DNA of 64,000 nucleotides from Methanohalophilus sp. RSK (GTDB taxonomy: Archaea; Halobacteriota; Methanosarcinia; Methanosarcinales; Methanosarcinaceae), in NCBI RefSeq assembly GCF_003722075.1, contig NZ_RDSK01000001.1, positions 124,001 through 188,000 on the forward strand, written 5' to 3'. The number at the start of each line of letters is the position of its first letter. The first letter of the stretch is position 1. This document shows positions 53,092-64,000 of the stretch, one piece after another. A program made the translations under genes and the position numbers. A model generated the notes under the pieces. The model saw only the letters and a list, made by a program, of their open reading frames with translations, ran no database searches and was not told the DNA's origin.

Positions 53092-53931
53092 ATGATGAAC
53101 AAATTGTGTTTAATAGATGATGCAGACTACGATACTGCAATTAAAGTGGAAGGGCTTAGTAAAAAGTATGATAATGTCCAGGCGGTTGCAAACGTAGAGT
53201 TTGAAGTGCGGTCTGGAGAAATTTTTGGATTCTTAGGACCAAACGGTGCAGGTAAGACCACAACCATCAATATGCTTACCGGTCTGGCACTTCCAGACAC
53301 AGGGACAATCCATATCGACGGGATCGATTGTACAAAAAAGCCACGTGGAGCCCAACACCTTATAGGAGTGGTCCCGGATGAAAACAACCTGTATCCAGAG
53401 TTGAGTGGCTTTGACAACCTCTGTTTCTGTGCCGCTCTTTATGGCATGAGCAAGAGCGAACGCCAGGCAAGAGCTAGGGACCTGCTGGAAGCCTTCGATT
53501 TAGCTAAGGCAGCCAGCCGCAAGTTCGACAGCTATTCAAAGGGCATGAAGCGTAAGCTCACCATTGCTGCCGGAATAATCCATAAACCCAAAATTTTATT
53601 TCTGGATGAACCCACCACTGGTATTGACGTAGCCAGTGCAAGACATTTGCGTAATCTCATTAGAGACTTGAACAGGAATGGAACGACAATATTTCTGACT
53701 ACTCACTATATTGAGGAGGCAGAGCAGCTTTGCAATCGCATCGCTTTTATCGTTTCAGGTAACATTGTTCGTGTAGATTCTGTTGAAAATCTGGTACAGC
53801 CTATACAGGGAAAGCATGTAATACAGATTGCATGCTCGAATTATTCTAATGATTTACAAAATAAGCTCGTTTCTGGAGGATTATTAATATACAGGAAATT
53901 AATCAGGAAAGGAAATAAGGCATTACCATGA
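53092..53931 (+). CDS. ABC transporter ATP-binding protein (DrrA/CcmA type)
   Basis: 279 residues. Walker A is GPNGAGKTTT, the signature is YSKGMKRKL, Walker B is ILFLDEPTTGID and the switch is LTTHYIEEA. DrrA-type ATPases are usually 300-330 residues; here the C-terminal domain ends early and the ABC-2 permease normally next to it is absent. Instead the start of a DUF318 permease overlaps the stop (ATGA). A fusion of unrelated halves by recombination, or an unusual transporter, are both possible. Confidence 0.8.
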   Translation: MMNKLCLIDDADYDTAIKVEGLSKKYDNVQAVANVEFEVRSGEIFGFLGPNGAGKTTTINMLTGLALPDTGTIHIDGIDCTKKPRGAQHLIGVVPDENNLYPELSGFDNLCFCAALYGMSKSERQARARDLLEAFDLAKAASRKFDSYSKGMKRKLTIAAGIIHKPKILFLDEPTTGIDVASARHLRNLIRDLNRNGTTIFLTTHYIEEAEQLCNRIAFIVSGNIVRVDSVENLVQPIQGKHVIQIACSNYSNDLQNKLVSGGLLIYRKLIRKGNKALP

Positions 53932-54428
53932 ATGCTGTTGTCCTTCTCATTAATGGTACGGCCCTGGCAGGTATTCTAGTTGCATTTATGGATGATCAGG
54001 AAAAAGCAATTCTCTCAATCAAAATTGCATTTAAGGGTTTCATGCAAATCCTGCCTGTGACATTGATCATACTGATTGTGATTGCTTTGCTCCTTGGTTT
54101 TGTTTCCCCTGATAACTTATCCGGATTTATTGGGCAACAGTCAGGATTAGGCGGTATTTTGTTAATCGGGGTTGCAGGGGCTATTATGCATATTCCCGCA
54201 ATACTTTCATTTCCTCTGGCCGCTTCTTTGCTCGAAAAAGGTATATCTTATACCGCAGTGGCCGCTTTGATCACAACTTTGACAATGATTGGTACGGTTA
54301 CATTACCTCTGGAAATCCGGCAACTGGGCAAAAAATTTGCACTGCTTCGAAATGGAATAAGTTTTGTTATTGCCATTGTTATTGCTTTAATTGTGGGTGT
54401 GGCAATGGAGGCAACGTTATGGCAATAA
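53928..54428 (+). CDS. DUF318/COG0701 permease, first half
   Basis: 166 residues with five hydrophobic segments. FKGFMQILPVTLIILIVIAL and IGVAGAIMHIPAILSFPLAA match the first repeat of DUF318 permeases, whose members include the organoarsenical exporter ArsP. Full-length permeases have two such halves; here the second is the next gene. It overlaps that gene by ten bases and the ATPase by four. Confidence 0.75.
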   Translation: MNAVVLLINGTALAGILVAFMDDQEKAILSIKIAFKGFMQILPVTLIILIVIALLLGFVSPDNLSGFIGQQSGLGGILLIGVAGAIMHIPAILSFPLAASLLEKGISYTAVAALITTLTMIGTVTLPLEIRQLGKKFALLRNGISFVIAIVIALIVGVAMEATLWQ

Positions 54429-54952
54429 GTTCCCAGATCAGCAATCAGCAGAACCTTAAAGATTGGATTTCTCTTGGAATTGTATTGTTGATTGCCTTTG
54501 TGGTTCTCAAAATATATCCTTTCAAAATCGGGAGTGTAATTGAATATTTCTGGCAATATACGATGGAAATGGTTCTAATTCTCCCGGCAGTTATGTTGAT
54601 AATGGGGCTTTTTTCAGTATATGTTTCTAATAATATGATAGAGAAATATCTTGGCAAATATGCTGGGATAAAGGGCATATTTCTATCATTTTTCCTGGGT
54701 TCTTTACCTACAGGTCCCTTGTATGTTGCTTTCCCTATAGCATCTCATCTGCTGGAAAAGGGGGCTCGCGTATCCAATGTCATAATCTTCCTCTCGGCCT
54801 GGGCATGCCTGAAGATTCCACAGGAATTGATGGAGTTTCAGTTTTTAGGCTGGAAATTTATGTTTTTGAGGTTATTTTTTACTGTAATTTTGGTAATCAT
54901 AATGGCTAAAATCATTGAATATTTTTTTGGAATTACTGATGATAGGTTATAA
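54419..54952 (+). CDS. DUF318/COG0701 permease, second half
   Basis: 177 residues with five to six hydrophobic segments. MIEKYLGKYAGIKGIFLSFF, LGSLPTGPLYVAFPIASHLL and FLSAWACLKIPQELMEF match the second DUF318 repeat, including its conserved SxPxGP/L motif and the intramembrane Cys in AWACLKIP. GGAGG precedes the ATG. The two halves probably assemble. The first repeat copy (54955) begins three bases after its stop. Confidence 0.75.
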   Translation: MAISSQISNQQNLKDWISLGIVLLIAFVVLKIYPFKIGSVIEYFWQYTMEMVLILPAVMLIMGLFSVYVSNNMIEKYLGKYAGIKGIFLSFFLGSLPTGPLYVAFPIASHLLEKGARVSNVIIFLSAWACLKIPQELMEFQFLGWKFMFLRLFFTVILVIIMAKIIEYFFGITDDRL

Positions 54953-54954
54953 TA

Positions 54955-55237
54955 TCAGCCTTTCAGTCCCGTACAAATTTCACCACAGGACATACCTCTA
55001 TACATTTGCCGCAGTGGGTGCACTTATCTCCTATATAGGCAATTTTGTTTTCGATCCGGATTGCGTTGCGAGGACATTTGCCTATACATACCCCGCAACC
55101 CGTACAGCCCAAGGCCCGGCGTATGGAGTTTTCCGTATCCTTGAGAAGTTTTCCGGCATCGGCTTTGGAAGATGCCCTGACTCTTACTGAACCTGTGGCA
55201 AAGACCTGCGCTGTATCTTTTTTCCGGGTGATCATTG
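54955..55237. repeat. Repeat copy A: 3' end of a ferredoxin-domain gene
   Basis: 283 bases about 96 percent identical, by eye, to 63639-63921. On the minus strand it encodes the last 90 codons of that gene ([44 protein letters not shown], stop at 54963) with no start of its own family. It begins three bases after the permease stop. It is best read as a duplicated gene end, not as an independent ferredoxin. Confidence 0.85.
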
Positions 55238-57160: not shown

Positions 57161-57919
57161 ATGTGGCATTCCAAACGAATCTTTACAATTCTGATTGTAT
57201 TCATTTGCACTAGTTTATTTTTCATAACTACTGCATATTCTGAATCTATTGGAGAAGACGACGTAGTTGGTCCGGGATTACCTCCATCTGAAATGATGCC
57301 GGAACGGTATATCCTTGACTCAATGGATGATGATAATGCCAATCATCTTTCCATGTTTCCCGATATTTCTCAATATTCTGATTGTGGAAACTATACTCGT
57401 CATACAATTATGTGTGTATGGTATTTTGATAACAAGAACTCGTTTATCAAATCGGAAGCGAATTTGTCCAGTTATCTGGTTGAATCAGGTGAAGTTGGGG
57501 TTGTGAAACTTAATATCAGTGATGAGATTAATGGAATTATTGAATCACGTGAAGATAAGAATCAATGGAGACCAACTCTTGGGCCCAAGCAGTTCAATGC
57601 TACCCGATATGTAAGTACGACAACATCCGGCTATTTTCTGGTTTATGTTCGTCCTTTTCTTGAAGAAAGAGAAGATTATTTCATTGTTTATTATGGAACA
57701 AAAGACGGTGCAGATATTGGAGATCAAAAACAGGAGTTGAAGAAATTGATAGCAAAGTCCTACTATTTTGGGAATTCGGAAGGTGGGGTTGAAGGTCTAC
57801 ATATGCATCCTGATACTTCCAAATCCCCAAACATGGTTCCTGGATTTGAATTGTTGATCTTAATAGGGTCATTTTGTTGTGCATTTATATTTAGACGTCA
57901 TCTACTCAAATTCAAATAA
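57161..57919 (+). CDS. PGF-CTERM-like secreted protein, unknown function
   Basis: 252 residues from the ATG at 57161 (AGGTGG upstream). A signal peptide (about 1-28, cut after TAYS) and an extracellular domain with two conserved-looking cysteines ([17 protein letters not shown]) are followed by a C-terminal [20 protein letters not shown] and then RRHLLKFK. That is a PGF motif, a membrane helix and a basic tail, the archaeosortase signal. I do not recognise the body. It pairs with the secreted protease 28 bases upstream. Its stop codon touches repeat copy B. Confidence 0.65.
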
Positions 57920-58077
57920 ATTTCACCACAGGACAGACCTCTATACATTTGCCGCAATGGGTGCACGTATCCCCTATATAGGCAATTTTGTTTTCGATCC
58001 GGATTGCGTTGCGAGGACATTTGCCTATACATACCCCGCAACCCGTACAGCCCAAGGCCCGGCGTATGGAGTTTTCC
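57918..58077. repeat. Repeat copy B: shorter 3' gene-end fragment
   Basis: 160 bases nearly identical to the first part of copies A and C (about four differences). On the minus strand it still encodes both ferredoxin motifs ([24 protein letters not shown]) and ends VVKFI instead of VVKFVRD. It begins exactly at the stop of the surface-protein gene. Together with A and C it brackets two gene modules. Confidence 0.85.
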
Positions 58078-58244
58078 TGTTCTTTTTCAGATTAACCAGT
58101 TGGTTATGCGGGATTCTGTCAGAAATCTCTATGGAATTTGTAGTTACCTGGCTGAATTAAGAAAACTTTATGTATCGTTATGTTTATCCAAACATATCGC
58201 CACATGTTATGGAATTAAAACACTTTCATCATAGGGGAACTCTC

Positions 58245-59327
58245 ATGCATAAAAAATTCAGGTATATTCTATTGATATTTGTGATCTTGTTTGCTGTATG
58301 CACAAGCGCATGTGTTGATCAAGAGGACGTTTCTGCGCAGAGCACAAGATCGATAACTGATATGGCGGGAAGGACAGTTGAAATCCCGGCTGAGGTTGAC
58401 AGGGCAGTTGCCACTTCTCCTCCTGCAACAATGCTAATCTACATGCTGGCTCCTGATAAATTAGCAGGCTGGAATTTTATGCCTCAGGGGTCGCAAACAT
58501 ATCTGGAACCTGAGTATCAGACCCTGCCTGTGATTGGCGGTTGGTTTGGTAAGCAGGATGGAAATTATGAAACCATAATATCCATGGGTCCCGATATCAT
58601 CTTTGAAGGCTACAACAGTGGAGGGGATGTTAATTCTACCATCAATGAAAGACAGAAAAAATTCGGTACAATTCCTGTTGTGGGGATTGAATCGACAATT
58701 GATGCCATGGGATATGCAAAGTCAATCAAATTCATGGGCAATGTTCTCGGAGAAGAAGAGAGAGCAGGTCGATTGATCTCTTTTTACGAAAGAGCACTTA
58801 ACAATGTCACCGTAAAGGTCTCACAAATACCTGAAGATGAAAGGAAGAGTGTCTATTATGCAGAAGGTACCAATGGTCTGCTTACGGACCCGGAAGGTTC
58901 CCCGCACAGTCAGTTGATAGAGATATGTGGTGGTATCAATGTAGCAGAATGTCCCATTGAACAGGGTTATGGAAGATCAGAGGTGTCCATTGAACAGGTA
59001 TTGCAATGGGACCCCGAAGTTATCATCACAGGCGACCCTAATTTTTACAAAAATGTATATGAAGACCCTCTCTGGCAGGACATCACTGCGGTAAAAAAAG
59101 ATGAGGTATATCTTTTCCCAGATGCTCCTTTTTGCTGGTTTGACAGGCCACCGGGTATTAACAGGATAATCGGTATTCCCTGGACAGCTAAAGTGCTCTA
59201 CCCTCAAGAGTTCAGCGATCTTGATCTCAGGGGTCATGTAAAGGGATTCTATTCAGAGTTCTATCATTATGAACTGTCGGAAGATGAGATCGATGGGTTA
59301 TTGAACCCGGCTGCTGCATCAAAGTAA
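58245..59327 (+). CDS. ABC substrate-binding lipoprotein (iron-siderophore/cobalamin class)
   Basis: 360 residues from the ATG at 58245, with GGGGAACT upstream. The signal ends in a lipobox-like CTSAC. The class III binding-protein fold follows: ITDMAGRTVEIPAEVDRAVA, then IISMGPDIIFEGYNS, SIEQVLQWDPEVIITGDPNF and FDRPPGINRIIGIPWTAKVL. The ligand is a chelated metal, corrinoid or similar. It is the first gene of module 2 and would deliver to the permease at 61805. Confidence 0.85.
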   Translation: MHKKFRYILLIFVILFAVCTSACVDQEDVSAQSTRSITDMAGRTVEIPAEVDRAVATSPPATMLIYMLAPDKLAGWNFMPQGSQTYLEPEYQTLPVIGGWFGKQDGNYETIISMGPDIIFEGYNSGGDVNSTINERQKKFGTIPVVGIESTIDAMGYAKSIKFMGNVLGEEERAGRLISFYERALNNVTVKVSQIPEDERKSVYYAEGTNGLLTDPEGSPHSQLIEICGGINVAECPIEQGYGRSEVSIEQVLQWDPEVIITGDPNFYKNVYEDPLWQDITAVKKDEVYLFPDAPFCWFDRPPGINRIIGIPWTAKVLYPQEFSDLDLRGHVKGFYSEFYHYELSEDEIDGLLNPAAASK

Positions 59328-59363
59328 AATTTTATAAATAGTTTCAGACGAAGGTGCAATTAA

Positions 59364-60017
59364 ATGACAGATGAAGTAACTGGTAAAGCTGGGTTTCATG
59401 ACGAATATGCCGAAAATTTCGAAGATGTTGCTGCCAACATCTTTGCTCCTATATATCCTGTTATTTCGCAGCAGATAATCAACAGATGCCAGATCAGGAG
59501 CGGGACTTTCATAGATGTGGGCAGCGGACCCGCATCACTTGCGATAGCTCTCAGTAAGCTTGTCGATGGCAAGGTCTATGCAATGGATTTTTCTGAAAAA
59601 ATGCTCGCTATAGCAAAGAAAAAGATTGAATCAAGGGATTTGAATGCAAATGTGATTCCTATTTTCGGTGATATTCATGATATGCCTTTTGACGATTGTT
59701 TTGCTGACCTGGTCGTAAGCCGTGGTTCTCTATTCTTCTGGCAGAATGTGCCCCAAGCTTTCAGGGAAATATATCGTGTGCTAAAACCCGGTGGTATGGC
59801 CTATATTGGAGGCGGTTTCGGCACAGCGGAACTTAAGTCAAAGATCACACAGGCCATGGAAAAAAGGGACCCTACATGGCCACAGTGTGTCGAAAAAAGA
59901 TTGAACAAGGCCAATCTGGATTCTTTTAAAAAAGCACTGCATGTTGCTGAAATTGACCATTACAGGATAATAGATGATGAATCCGGTTTCTGGATATGTT
60001 TCAATAAGGTGGACTGA
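59364..60017 (+). CDS. SAM-dependent methyltransferase of the import module
   Basis: 217 residues. GTFIDVGSGPASLAIALSKL is motif I, VYAMDFSEKMLAIAKKKIES motif II and FADLVVSRGSLFFWQNVPQA motif IV, followed by YRVLKPGGMAYIGGGFG. It is a small-molecule methyltransferase with no membrane segment. It sits between the binding protein (36 bases) and the radical SAM gene (3 bases), so it probably acts on the same imported compound. Confidence 0.8.
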   Translation: MTDEVTGKAGFHDEYAENFEDVAANIFAPIYPVISQQIINRCQIRSGTFIDVGSGPASLAIALSKLVDGKVYAMDFSEKMLAIAKKKIESRDLNANVIPIFGDIHDMPFDDCFADLVVSRGSLFFWQNVPQAFREIYRVLKPGGMAYIGGGFGTAELKSKITQAMEKRDPTWPQCVEKRLNKANLDSFKKALHVAEIDHYRIIDDESGFWICFNKVD

Positions 60018-60020
60018 CCT

Positions 60021-61766
60021 ATGAAGTGCAACATATGTGAAATCGGCTGCGAGCTTGCAGAGGGAAAGAGTGGCCAATGTCGTATGTATATCAACAAAAA
60101 TGGTCAGATCATCGAGAGATTTCCAAACACCTACTTCACAATGTTTCCGGTTTCCATTGAGACAGTCCCCCTGCTCCATTTTTATCCGCGGGGTAAATTT
60201 CTGCAGGTTTGTACCATTGGCTGCAATTTTAAATGTGAAGGCTGCATCTCGGAGATCCTGGCATCCCGTCTTCTTTCCACTAATAAAAAAAGTGGAATTA
60301 GCAATGAGAACGTTATCAATAAAGCCCTTGATGAAGACTGCATAGGGATTGTTTTTTGTCTCAATGATCCGGCTGTCTCCTATTTTACATTCCGGGACCT
60401 TGCTAAAAAGGCCAGGCAGAACAATCTTTTGATCGGTTGCTCCACTAACGGATATTTTACAGAAAACGCATTGAAAGAACTAATCCCTTTGATTGATTTC
60501 GTAAATATCGGTATAAAGGGTTATTCAGATGAAAGGTATATTTCATGCGGTGCCAGAGGTTCCGGGCCTGTTTTCAGGAATCTGAAATTACTGAAAGAAA
60601 GTGATGTTCATGTTGAGGTTTCTACCATTTACATCAAGGGTTCAGAGGATGAAGTCATAAATTCTGCAAAATTTGTTTCCTCCCTCTCAGAGGATATACC
60701 GTTTCAGGTTATGAGGTTTGTACCTTTTGGAGATGCAGCCCCTCAGATCGAACCAACGATAAGGGAAAGTGAAGGTCTGTGTGACAAATTAACGCAATAC
60801 CTAAATTATGTGTATCTTTTCAATTCTCCGGGTACCGATCATTTGAATACGGTATGTCCAGAATGCAGTAAAATCATTTTCCAGAGGGAGTTCTTTGGTC
60901 CCATGGGCTCCCGTACTTTATCCTACCTGCCGCAGGGGGGATGTGAGTGTTCGAATCCAGCCTTTTTCAGAGGAGAAGTAAGTGAAGTTTCTCATCATGA
61001 ACCTGGATTTATGGGAGGATACAGGATCACCCGGGCTCTGGAGATGATCCATGCTATTCTTGTCTGCCTTGGGATAAAAGATGATCATAAACTTGCAGAA
61101 ATATGGGCCAATGTCATGGAAACAGGATATTTGGAGGAGCTTCATACCAGTTCTCAGGACCTTGACTCTTACTTTGATGTAATTGAGCATTTTGCCGCCC
61201 TTGCAGACAGGAAAAAGGAAGGAATGGAACTTGTGGCTTATATGAGGAAGAAACTGGATTTCATACGGTCTGTGACAAATGACATTGAAAGGCCACGGGT
61301 TTATTATTGTATGGGATATCCCCTTTTTGCACTCAATGGGGAGCGAATTGAGAATAATCTTGTTGAAGCTGCAGGCGGAGAAAGTGTAAACAAGCTGATC
61401 GACAGGGAGGGAAAACCCGGGGTTGGTATTTCTCATAATGAATTTGCAGAGATGAACCCTGTGTTCATATTCATATCAGGCTTCCTTTCAACCCCGGTTT
61501 CCGATTCATATGCCTATTGTAAAAAACATGGTCTATCTGCAGATGCCCTAAAAAACAGGAGGATATACGGTCTTCGTCCATTATGGGATTTCGGAAGTCC
61601 TAGATGGATATTGGGGCTGATGTACATAGCAAATAAGTTACATCCTGAAAAATTTAATTTTGATATTGATAAAGAGGCAAATCAGTTCTATAAAAGGTTC
61701 TATGGTGTGTCCTTTGATTCTTCAAGGCACAACAGGTCTTTTTACAGCGTTTCATCCAGGCAATGA
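60021..61766 (+). CDS. Radical SAM enzyme fused to a substrate-binding-protein domain
   Basis: 581 residues. The N-terminus has a Cys knuckle (C3, C6, C10, C20) and the radical SAM motif C68-x3-C72-x2-C75 (CNFKCEGC), as in COG1180/AmmeMemoRadiSam proteins. Further cysteines (CPECSKI, GGCECSN, about 285-325) may hold another cluster. From about residue 330 to the end the protein resembles the C-terminal half of the binding protein at 58245 (AAGGESVNKLIDREGKPGVG, WILGLMYIANKLHPEKFNFD, QFYKRFYGV) but has no signal. So it is cytoplasmic and carries its own ligand-binding module. Confidence 0.75.
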   Translation: MKCNICEIGCELAEGKSGQCRMYINKNGQIIERFPNTYFTMFPVSIETVPLLHFYPRGKFLQVCTIGCNFKCEGCISEILASRLLSTNKKSGISNENVINKALDEDCIGIVFCLNDPAVSYFTFRDLAKKARQNNLLIGCSTNGYFTENALKELIPLIDFVNIGIKGYSDERYISCGARGSGPVFRNLKLLKESDVHVEVSTIYIKGSEDEVINSAKFVSSLSEDIPFQVMRFVPFGDAAPQIEPTIRESEGLCDKLTQYLNYVYLFNSPGTDHLNTVCPECSKIIFQREFFGPMGSRTLSYLPQGGCECSNPAFFRGEVSEVSHHEPGFMGGYRITRALEMIHAILVCLGIKDDHKLAEIWANVMETGYLEELHTSSQDLDSYFDVIEHFAALADRKKEGMELVAYMRKKLDFIRSVTNDIERPRVYYCMGYPLFALNGERIENNLVEAAGGESVNKLIDREGKPGVGISHNEFAEMNPVFIFISGFLSTPVSDSYAYCKKHGLSADALKNRRIYGLRPLWDFGSPRWILGLMYIANKLHPEKFNFDIDKEANQFYKRFYGVSFDSSRHNRSFYSVSSRQ

Positions 61767-61804
61767 CCACACTTTATGAACCGATTTTAGGAAATGAGAT
61801 ATAA

Positions 61805-62866
61805 ATGTCATATGATATCGGAAGAATCACAGGTTTGAAATTGGGGATTCATAAGAGAATCTCTGAGGGTAATACACAGATATTCCTCGCATTTTTCCTT
61901 ATGATATTTCTCTTTGTACTTTCCCTTTTTATGGGAAGGTATTCAATCCCTCCACAAACTATAATGACTAACATTATTTTCTGGCTTCTATCATTAGGAA
62001 AGGTGGAGCCTTCAAATGTGGGTACTGTCATATTTCAGATACGTCTTCCAAGGATAATTGCAGCTATGCTGGTAGGGGCTGGATTATCTATATCTGGAGC
62101 TTCCTTTCAAGGCCTTTTCCGCAATCCGCTGGTATCTCCCTATATTTTAGGAGTGGCTTCAGGGGCTGGATTTGGTGCCTGCCTGGGTATCCTGATAAGT
62201 GAGAATATATTTGTTATCCAGTTAATGGCATTTTCTTTTGGAATACTTGCAGCTTTTCTAGCTTACAGCCTCAGTAAGTCCTGCAAGGCAACGGTCACAC
62301 TGGTCCTTGTGCTTTCAGGTATTATTGTAGGTGCAGTTTTCACTGCTCTGACCTCTCTGGTAAAATATGTCGCAGATCCATATGATAAACTTCCTGAGAT
62401 GGTATTCTGGCTTATGGGAAGTCTCTCATCTGTCAGGGCCGAGGATCTGATGTATGCGTCACCTGCAATTCTTGCCGGTATGCTCGTTCTCATTCTTATT
62501 GGGTGGCGCATCAATGTCATCTCTTTGGGAGAGGAAGAAGCCAGGTCACTGGGTATAGATACTATGAAAATGACAATACTGATAGTTATTTGTGCCACTC
62601 TGGTCACAACTTCTGCAATTAGTATCAGCGGTATTATTGGATGGGTAGGCCTTGTAGTACCCCATATCTCGCGGATGCTGGTTGGTCCAAGTTACAAAAA
62701 ACTGTTACCAATGTCAGTTTTCCTCGGTGCATCTTTTCTTTTGATCGTAGATGATCTCGCAAGGACATTAATGAGCATAGAAATACCCCTTGGAGTTCTT
62801 ACGGCATTGATAGGAGCACCATTTTTTGCTTATCTTTTACAAAAAAAGAAGGTTGGTTGGTCATGA
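61805..62866 (+). CDS. FecCD/BtuC-family ABC permease
   Basis: 353 residues with about ten membrane segments. IRLPRIIAAMLVGAGLSISG, ASFQGLFRNPLVSPYILGVA and ISGIIGWVGLVVPHISRMLV are the FecCD signatures, with LVVPHIxR the ATPase contact region. It is the membrane channel for uptake of siderophores, heme or cobalamin. Its stop overlaps the ATPase start (ATGA). Confidence 0.9.
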   Translation: MSYDIGRITGLKLGIHKRISEGNTQIFLAFFLMIFLFVLSLFMGRYSIPPQTIMTNIIFWLLSLGKVEPSNVGTVIFQIRLPRIIAAMLVGAGLSISGASFQGLFRNPLVSPYILGVASGAGFGACLGILISENIFVIQLMAFSFGILAAFLAYSLSKSCKATVTLVLVLSGIIVGAVFTALTSLVKYVADPYDKLPEMVFWLMGSLSSVRAEDLMYASPAILAGMLVLILIGWRINVISLGEEEARSLGIDTMKMTILIVICATLVTTSAISISGIIGWVGLVVPHISRMLVGPSYKKLLPMSVFLGASFLLIVDDLARTLMSIEIPLGVLTALIGAPFFAYLLQKKKVGWS

Positions 62867-63633
62867 TATTAAGGGTAGACAATGCTTCGTATTCGTATGG
62901 TGGCAAGGAGAATGTATTTGAGGATATTTCCTTTTTTTTAAATAAGGGTGAGACTTTATGCATACTTGGTCCCAATGGGATTGGTAAATCAACACTGCTA
63001 AAATGCCTCGGCAATGTATTGAAATTAAGTGAGGGCAGCGTCTTTATTGAGGGAAAAGACATCTCTTCGATGAGCAGAACAGAGATTGCCCAAAAGATCG
63101 GTTACGTTCCCCAGTCAGATCAATCGGTATTTCCCTTCTCTGTACTGGATTTTGTAATGCTTGGAAGAGCACCTCATCTTCCCTTCTTCTCCTCTCCTGG
63201 AGAAAAGGATCTCAATATAGCTGAGAATGCCATCAATAAAGTGGGGATATCTCATTTGAGGGATCGGCCTGTTACAGAAGTAAGTGGTGGCGAAAGACAG
63301 CTTGCTCTGATTGCAAGGGCTCTGGCACAGGAGCCGGAAATTTTGCTTCTGGATGAACCTACCTCCCATTTGGATTTCGGGAACCAGGTACGTGTTCTGA
63401 ACCTTATTGGAAGACTAACATCTCAGGGCACTTCTGTGATTATGAGCACGCACTTCCCGGACCATGGTTTTATAGGCTCTAAGAATGTAGCGATAATGCT
63501 TGAGAATGGTTTCATTGACCCGGGAACTGCTGAAGAAGTAATTACAAAAGAGAACATGGCTCTTGCATATGGTGTCGATGTAACCATCGATCATGTCAGT
63601 TCCATACAGAGAAATGTATGTCTTCCTCTTTAA
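62863..63633 (+). CDS. BtuD/FecE-family ABC ATPase
   Basis: 256 residues from the ATG at 62863. Walker A is GPNGIGKST, the Q-loop YVPQSD, the signature VSGGERQLALIARAL and Walker B ILLLDEPTSHLD, followed by STHFPDHG. It energises the permease at 61805. It is the last gene of module 2; copy C of the repeat begins six bases after its stop. Confidence 0.92.
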   Translation: MILRVDNASYSYGGKENVFEDISFFLNKGETLCILGPNGIGKSTLLKCLGNVLKLSEGSVFIEGKDISSMSRTEIAQKIGYVPQSDQSVFPFSVLDFVMLGRAPHLPFFSSPGEKDLNIAENAINKVGISHLRDRPVTEVSGGERQLALIARALAQEPEILLLDEPTSHLDFGNQVRVLNLIGRLTSQGTSVIMSTHFPDHGFIGSKNVAIMLENGFIDPGTAEEVITKENMALAYGVDVTIDHVSSIQRNVCLPL

Positions 63634-63638
63634 TTATG

Positions 63639-63921
63639 TCAGCCTTTCAGTCCCGTACAAATTTCACCACAGGACATACCTCTATACATTTGCCGCAGTG
63701 GGTGCACTTATCCCCTATATAGGCAATTTTGTTTTCGATCCGGATTGCATTGCGGGGACATTTGCCTATACATACCCCGCAACCCGTACAGCCCAGAGCC
63801 CGGCGTATTGAGTTTTCCGTGTCCTTGAGAAGTTTTCCGGCATCGGCTTTGGAAGAGGCCCTGACTCTTACTGAACCTGTGGCAAAGACCTGCGCTGTAT
63901 TTTTTTTCCGGGTGATCATTG
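63639..63921. repeat. Repeat copy C, inside the resident gene
   Basis: The same 283-base segment as copy A, here continuous with the upstream coding sequence of the minus-strand gene, so this is the source copy. It starts at TCAGCCTTTCAGTCCCG, as copy A does. Confidence 0.85.
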
Positions 63922-64000
63922 CCATCTCGTTGGTATACTTCACCTCACCGATAGCAAGCAGCATGCCGCTTTTCCTTATTTTCTCCATATCAAGGGCCGT
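63647..64000 (-). CDS. Ferredoxin-domain protein (PAPS-reductase-like C-terminus), partial
   Basis: The last 117 codons of a gene that enters from the right edge. ALDMEKIRKSGMLLAIGEVK and VFATGSVRVRASSKADAGKL form a PUA-like segment; [12 protein letters not shown] and [12 protein letters not shown] bind two [4Fe-4S] clusters. This end is typical of methanogen phosphoadenosine-phosphosulfate-reductase-like proteins, but the catalytic part is outside the window. Its 3' end is the sequence duplicated at 54955 and 57918. Confidence 0.7.
   Translation of the reverse strand, partial: TALDMEKIRKSGMLLAIGEVKYTNEMAMITRKKNTAQVFATGSVRVRASSKADAGKLLKDTENSIRRALGCTGCGVCIGKCPRNAIRIENKIAYIGDKCTHCGKCIEVCPVVKFVRD

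Follow-up and report, generated by a model that had tools for sequence, protein, structure and literature searches.

A radical-SAM enzyme fused to a binding-protein lobe in a FecCD importer cassette of Methanohalophilus, with genomic links to molybdenum and tungsten

The window analysed here is a stretch of 64,000 nt from contig NZ_RDSK01000001.1 of the methanogenic archaeon Methanohalophilus sp. RSK, and the subject of this analysis is a cassette of five open reading frames (ORFs) on its plus strand at 58245-63633. In order, the ORFs encode a class III substrate-binding protein (SBP), a methyltransferase (MT) dependent on S-adenosylmethionine (SAM), a radical-SAM protein (RS) fused to one lobe of a binding protein, a FecCD permease and an ATP-binding cassette (ABC) ATPase, with an intergenic spacing of -10 to +41 nt (Table 1). 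All five exceeded the Pfam cut-offs of their families (Peripla_BP_2, Methyltransf_11, Radical_SAM, FecCD and ABC_tran), which bears out the unit of importer and enzyme genes proposed in the first-pass annotation, a model's reading of the DNA alone. The permease, the ATPase and the SBP make up a complete type II (FecCD) importer set, and since the cassette permease is encoded by the only FecCD gene in the host genome, its adjacency to the enzyme genes is not due to chance. The SBP carries a signal sequence with a lipobox-like TSAC, and its relatives in the PDB by profile search included 4pag (3e-57) and MolA (3psa/3psh, 3e-22). The MT matched 3dlc over its full length (3.5e-61), an entry annotated only as a putative methyltransferase.

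Table 1. Positions in the window of the cassette genes and of the regions of the radical-SAM fusion
Feature	Position	Strand	Evidence
SBP, class III substrate-binding lipoprotein, 360 aa	58245..59327	+	Peripla_BP_2, 71.8 bits (cut-off 27.5), 7e-20
MT, class I SAM-dependent methyltransferase, 217 aa	59364..60017	+	Methyltransf_11, 1e-22
RS, radical-SAM/binding-protein-lobe fusion, 581 aa	60021..61766	+	Radical_SAM PF04055, 38.0 bits (cut-off 29.5)
RS N-terminal cysteines C3, C6, C10, C20	60027..60080	+	Invariant in 46 homologues; also in paralogue L002
RS radical-SAM core, C68-x3-C72-x2-C75	60198..60716	+	PF04055, residues 65-217; Foldseek to PFL-activating enzyme and NifB
RS post-barrel cysteines C279, C282, C308, C310	60855..60950	+	Conservation across 46 homologues
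RS helical region, residues 335-419, with SBP linker helix at its end	61023..61277	+	DSSP of AlphaFold model; joint SBP alignment
RS C-lobe of class III binding protein, residues 426-561	61296..61703	+	Profile, alignment, AlphaFold model, Foldseek, tree
FecCD permease	61805..62866	+	PF01032, 300 bits
Importer ABC ATPase	62857..63633	+	ABC_tran, 118 bits, 5e-34; 10-nt overlap with permease gene

The radical-SAM protein had been noted to resemble, from about residue 330, the C-terminal half of the binding protein encoded upstream. Pairwise BLAST between RS and the SBP gave a weak match (22% identity, residues 377-561, E 9e-5), Pfam Peripla_BP_2 alone scored the RS C-terminus at 13.7 bits, under its cut-off, and the NCBIfam model TIGR04281 matched RS at 3e-6. 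A profile of 74 homologous lobes scored the neighbouring SBPs at 56-104 bits, and the lobe matches of a profile of 17 fusions in the PDB were confined to the C-terminal halves of class III SBPs (best 5e-13). An AlphaFold model of RS built from 46 sequences (pLDDT 90.2, pTM 0.90) was then compared with known structures by Foldseek; the lobe matched class III SBPs, with 4hn9 the best (1.6e-12) and CeuE, MolA and BtuF ranking below, and the comparison with BtuF/FhuD-type folds that the first-pass annotation had proposed thus returned no different fold. Judged from profiles and predicted structure, the C-terminus of RS is a genuine relative of class III binding proteins. The homology begins at about residue 372-384 rather than at 330, however, and only the linker helix and the C-lobe align (~380-561), the N-lobe being absent from the joint alignment, the PDB profile matches and the AlphaFold model. 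No signal peptide was seen at the start of RS (MKCNICEIGC), as had been noted, and the two lobes with a cleft and the secretion signal of an SBP are not found in its C-terminal region. The strongly conserved positions of the lobe include R442, E444, N457, G464-P466-G467, C500 and a WDFGSPRW loop, which aligns with W-x-DRPP, a loop conserved in the partner SBPs.

The CxxxCxxC site and the additional cysteine clusters that had been pointed out in RS proved to be conserved. Twelve cysteines (3, 6, 10 and 20; 68, 72 and 75; 107; 140; 279 and 282; 308) are invariant among 46 homologues, and C176, C310 and C500 are conserved in at least 90% of them; C279, C282, C308 and C310 form a possible auxiliary cluster or Zn site. 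RS scored 113.9 bits against TIGR04337, the radical-SAM enzyme of the AmmeMemoRadiSam system, where the equivalog cut-off is 220, and it is therefore a relative of that family and not a member. A paralogue in the same genome (L002, contig C17; loci and genomes of the scan are given by such handles where needed) is of the AmmeMemoRadiSam type and shares with RS the N-terminal CxxCxxxC...C and CPxC motifs at ~33% identity, including the N-terminal cysteine set and C279/C282, but it is 356 aa long and has no lobe. By Foldseek the RS barrel resembles the PFL-activating enzyme and NifB; the latter likeness is at the level of the fold only, as no NifB family model in NCBIfam matched RS at E values up to 1. 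As the nearest radical-SAM families are AmmeMemoSam_rS and the YjjW/PFL activases, RS might activate or modify a protein in the manner of PFL-activating enzymes, perhaps of AmmeMemoRadiSam, with the lobe as a protein-docking module. We regard this as improbable, because neither a glycyl-radical enzyme nor an AMMECR1 or MEMO gene was found in the cassette or recurrently among the operon neighbours scanned, and the AmmeMemo score lies under its cut-off. Neither Pfam nor NCBIfam has a model of the whole fusion, and literature searches returned no published description of it, in line with the earlier remark that such a fusion appeared to be undescribed.

Using a GTDB scan, we obtained 101 confirmed relatives of the fusion in methanogens and anaerobic bacteria, so that the occurrence in other archaea that the first-pass annotation had suggested looking for was found, with the same partners, and extends beyond the archaea. 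The archaeal relatives include Methanosarcinales, Methanomicrobiales and Methanolliviera, and the bacterial ones Desulfosporosinus, Pelotomaculum, Syntrophomonas, Geobacter, Acetobacterium, Seleniivibrio and a spirochaete; the sampling of these clades was limited by pattern-based retrieval, and neighbouring ORFs were called mechanically. The distribution is patchy over several genera of the host family, and five of the eight genomes of the host genus carry the fusion. Outside its immediate kin, the window RS is closest to that of Methanolliviera (61%, against 50% for Methanosarcina), which suggests that this copy was acquired by horizontal transfer. In a tree, the RS lobes formed one clade apart from all SBPs (SH-aLRT 100), and the fusion therefore arose once; by the same separation, we rejected a recent duplication of the neighbouring SBP as the source of the lobe. 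An inserted domain in the bacterial copies, considered because of long tblastn spans, was likewise rejected, as the ORFs are ~585-652 aa long and the extra span is homology to the neighbouring SBP. In one locus (L126, G249:C1:19689-21429), the radical-SAM and lobe parts of RS match separately, though with an overlap, and the lobe match contains an in-frame stop, which may reflect natural fission or decay; a more divergent copy of full length lies beside it on the opposite strand.

The gene order SBP-MT-RS-FecCD-ATPase was found again in the related loci examined from Methanosarcinaceae. Among 45 loci in which 5 kb or more was available to either side of the fusion (23 archaeal and 22 bacterial), FecCD was found nearby in 35 (19 archaeal and 16 bacterial), an SBP in 37 (17 and 20) and the MT in 36 (20 and 16), with the MT directly upstream of RS in 18 of the 23 archaeal and 10 of the 22 bacterial loci. 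Pairwise distances among the RS proteins correlated with those among the MTs (r 0.77) and among the adjacent (nearest) SBPs (r 0.56), values that none of 2000 permutations reached in either case. TonB receptor genes were found in several of the bacterial loci. In three loci, the gene directly after RS encodes a TrmO_N domain joined to an FmdE-like domain (L092:9810-10610, L098:9964-10722 and L104:10488-11333).

We then searched 37 loci (~565 kb) around the RS relatives with Rfam. The only cis-regulatory RNAs found were of the molybdenum/tungsten (Mo/W)-cofactor type, namely 11 RF01055 elements in 10 loci and two Moco-II elements in another; the remaining matches were two tRNAs, and neither a cobalamin nor a Ni/Co riboswitch was detected. 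With the element density of each genome taken as its own expectation, 10 of 30 bacterial loci bore RF01055 where 0.83 were expected (exact P 1.4e-9), and seven bore it within ~1 kb upstream of the operon on the same strand where 0.026 were expected (P 4.5e-16); as two of these loci are near-identical (L099/L100) and two come from one genome (L103/L110), there are ~5-6 independent cases and the P values are somewhat optimistic. RF01055 lies directly upstream of the fusion operon in L078, L080, L091, L099, L100, L103 and L110, and Moco-II in L108. The operons led by a riboswitch range from SBP-RS (L103) and SBP-RS-MT (L080) to FecCD-ATP-DUF364-SBP-RS (L100) and TonB-MT-RS-SBP-SBP-ModA (L110). 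The P3 stem, proposed to separate the Mo- from the W-cofactor type of this riboswitch (Regulski et al. 2008, PMC2408646), is present in L080 and missing in L103, which would suggest a molybdenum-cofactor type for the former and a tungsten-cofactor type for the latter. HmdB-like radical-SAM genes were found near RS in L075, L078, L082 and L110, and in L078 the Moco riboswitch precedes both the HmdB-like gene and RS.

The first-pass annotation had proposed import and radical modification of a cofactor or metal chelate, leaning towards a tetrapyrrole such as a corrinoid or F430; of this, a metal species remains probable, whereas a corrinoid or F430 does not. The idea draws on the FecCD/BtuC-type importer with its class III SBP, on a generic profile likeness to BtuC and BtuF, on the cassette permease being the host's sole FecCD protein and on a BchU-like methyltransferase in some loci, but both the regulatory elements and the neighbouring genes point to Mo/W and none to corrinoid or Ni, and we consider a corrinoid, heme or F430 substrate very improbable. 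Tetrapyrrole operons and cobalamin or Ni/Co riboswitches, sought in the scanned loci, were not recurrent.

The neighbouring genes agree with the riboswitches. ModA or ModB was found near RS in six loci of the scan, and ModABC stands in one operon with the fusion in L083 and in L123, where the order is ModABC-MT-RS. Further neighbours were MoeA, formate dehydrogenase (a split gene), FmdE and TrmO-FmdE fusions, and DUF364 (PF04016) was found near 14 of 80 fusion loci. The contexts of DUF364 described by Miller et al. are transport of Mo, W, V and Fe (PMC2954201). In each of the six Methanosarcina genomes examined, a second RS copy lies divergent from vnfH or an anf cluster (L117-L122, L084), and VnfD and AnfD exceeded their NCBIfam cut-offs wherever scanned. 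Alternative nitrogenases are often regarded as backups under Mo limitation (PMC5328986). In L117, an SBP-FecCD-ATPase set lies on the other side of the second copy. An operon of Desulfosporosinus fructosivorans (L076:4193-7899) has the order SBP-FecCD-ATPase-MT-NifD-like-NifK-like-NifH-like-RS; its D and K proteins score well below the nifD and nifK cut-offs, and it thus encodes an uncharacterised nitrogenase-like enzyme.

Given these nitrogenase-like neighbours, a role of RS as a metallocofactor maturase similar to NifB is a serious rival, in which the lobe would scaffold a Mo, V, W or Fe-S precursor and the importer would only supply the metal. The likeness of the barrel to NifB and to the PFL-activating enzyme, the conserved extra cysteines, the proximity to vnf/anf, the single operon with NifDKH-like genes and the HmdB-like genes in Desulfosporosinus would all fit such a role. 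Most RS copies, however, adjoin an importer and are not near nitrogenase genes, and the lobe shares its ancestry with importer SBPs rather than with nitrogenase scaffolds, so that we hold this explanation to be rather unlikely.

Among characterised systems, the closest is MolBC-A (Haemophilus influenzae HI1470-1472), a BtuCD-type Mo/W importer that shares with the cassette the FecCD class, a homologous SBP and the association with Mo/W. To our knowledge, it has no radical-SAM or methyltransferase partner, unlike the cassette. MolA is the nearest solved relative of the cassette SBP with a known ligand (E 3.3e-22, residues 35-342), and it binds molybdate and tungstate, taking the free oxyanion at low affinity (PMC4031551). 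The Moco/Tuco riboswitch regulon includes a Syntrophomonas wolfei operon in which genes for Mo/W transport stand with others that have no known function, and the same RNA class lies directly upstream of the bacterial fusion operons; these riboswitches were described from bacteria, and other regulation must apply to the archaeal copies (PMC2408646). The heavy-metal-chelation neighbourhoods published for DUF364 combine ABC importers with Mo/W/V/Fe transport (PMC2954201), and the domain is also encoded near some of the fusion loci, although the window cassette is without it. A term search of the text found no mention of radical SAM in the former paper and none of a radical-SAM partner of DUF364 in the latter. 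SAO and TrsS, which are selenoprotein metal systems (PMC13188914), resemble the cassette in joining an ABC importer to enzymes for metal or organometallic species. Identity with either was rejected, as RS, the SBP and the permease matched none of the Sao or TrsS models at E values up to 1. In the NCBIfam search, the SBP also weakly matched the Btr model. Btr is an AraC regulator with an SBP domain and so offers a precedent for a domain of this type on a cytoplasmic protein; it differs from RS in being a regulator, while RS carries a single lobe on an enzyme.

Taken with the MolA-like SBP, the riboswitches and the neighbouring genes make it very probable that the cassette handles Mo/W. Within this, we favour, at a probability of about 45%, an enzyme-assisted Mo/W acquisition unit that processes the imported species. 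The species taken up by the SBP and the FecCD importer would carry Mo or W, probably as a chelate or in another organically bound form and not only as the free oxyanion; the cytoplasmic RS, whose lobe is the half of a related binding protein that faces the ligand, would hold the same species and, together with the MT, alter it chemically by release or remodelling, after which the metal would enter the synthesis of the molybdenum cofactor, the tungsten cofactor or a nitrogenase cofactor. Processing of an organically bound form is favoured because TonB receptors, which fit a bulky or scarce chelate, join several of the operons and because neither an exporter nor a scaffold-building enzyme was seen to recur there. 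A more specific version, that the RS barrel stands in place of one SBP lobe so that an imported organic Mo/W species is gripped between the lobe and the active site and remodelled with the MT, is tentative and perhaps unlikely.

In a related alternative, RS and MT would make or tailor a small Mo/W metallophore or modified pterin that is secreted and then re-imported by the SBP and FecCD, in the style of siderophore operons. The operons that join the enzyme genes to an importer and TonB receptors, the role in flavin, pterin or siderophore synthesis proposed for DUF364 (PMC2954201) and the BchU-like O-methyltransferases near some loci are in keeping with it, but the operons scanned showed neither a recurrent exporter nor a non-ribosomal peptide synthetase, an NRPS-independent siderophore (NIS) synthetase or any other enzyme that would build a scaffold, and RS occurs with an SBP alone in L091 and L103; we consider this alternative plausible but doubtful.

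Several observations weigh against processing of an imported Mo/W species in the host archaeon. No Mo gene was identified beside the window copy, nor is a riboswitch known there, where the Rfam scan did not extend; the archaeal evidence for Mo/W comes from other species, and the host already has one ModB. The nitrogenase-like and HmdB-like neighbours also fit cofactor assembly, and a chelate is not required, since MolA itself takes free molybdate (PMC4031551). The MT is missing from some RS operons, and five of the 45 well-flanked loci have neither an SBP nor FecCD nearby, so that the pairing with an importer, which the first-pass annotation had expected of orthologues, is strong but not absolute. 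Complementarity with ModABC across the family was also considered and was uninformative, because nearly all of the genomes carry a ModB-like gene.

Outside the cassette, the 3' portion of a gene for a small 4Fe-4S ferredoxin was found in three direct copies at 54949-55237, 57892-58084 and 63633-63921, 94-97% identical where aligned, which border the cassette and the segment that precedes it; the intact ferredoxin gene is at 63647-63988 on the minus strand. A relative without the cassette (G032) has a single ferredoxin copy, and related genomes differ in the combination of segments that lies between the copies, as if gene blocks were inserted at the 3' end of the ferredoxin gene. Two overlapping half-length genes for ArsP_1-type permeases were also found in the window at 53928-54952.

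Methanogenesis, syntrophic formate exchange and nitrogen fixation require molybdenum and tungsten, both of which are in short supply in sulfidic, anoxic environments. A conserved unit under riboswitch control that links uptake to radical-SAM chemistry would mean that these metals are obtained in an unrecognised form, and it gives a set of genes with which to find that form. Should the barrel indeed stand in for a binding-protein lobe, it would follow that methanogens, syntrophs and metal reducers use a natural Mo/W chelate not yet described. The Mo/W reading would also give a function to a radical-SAM family for which neither Pfam nor NCBIfam has a model of its own, as well as to the DUF364 and FmdE proteins encoded nearby.

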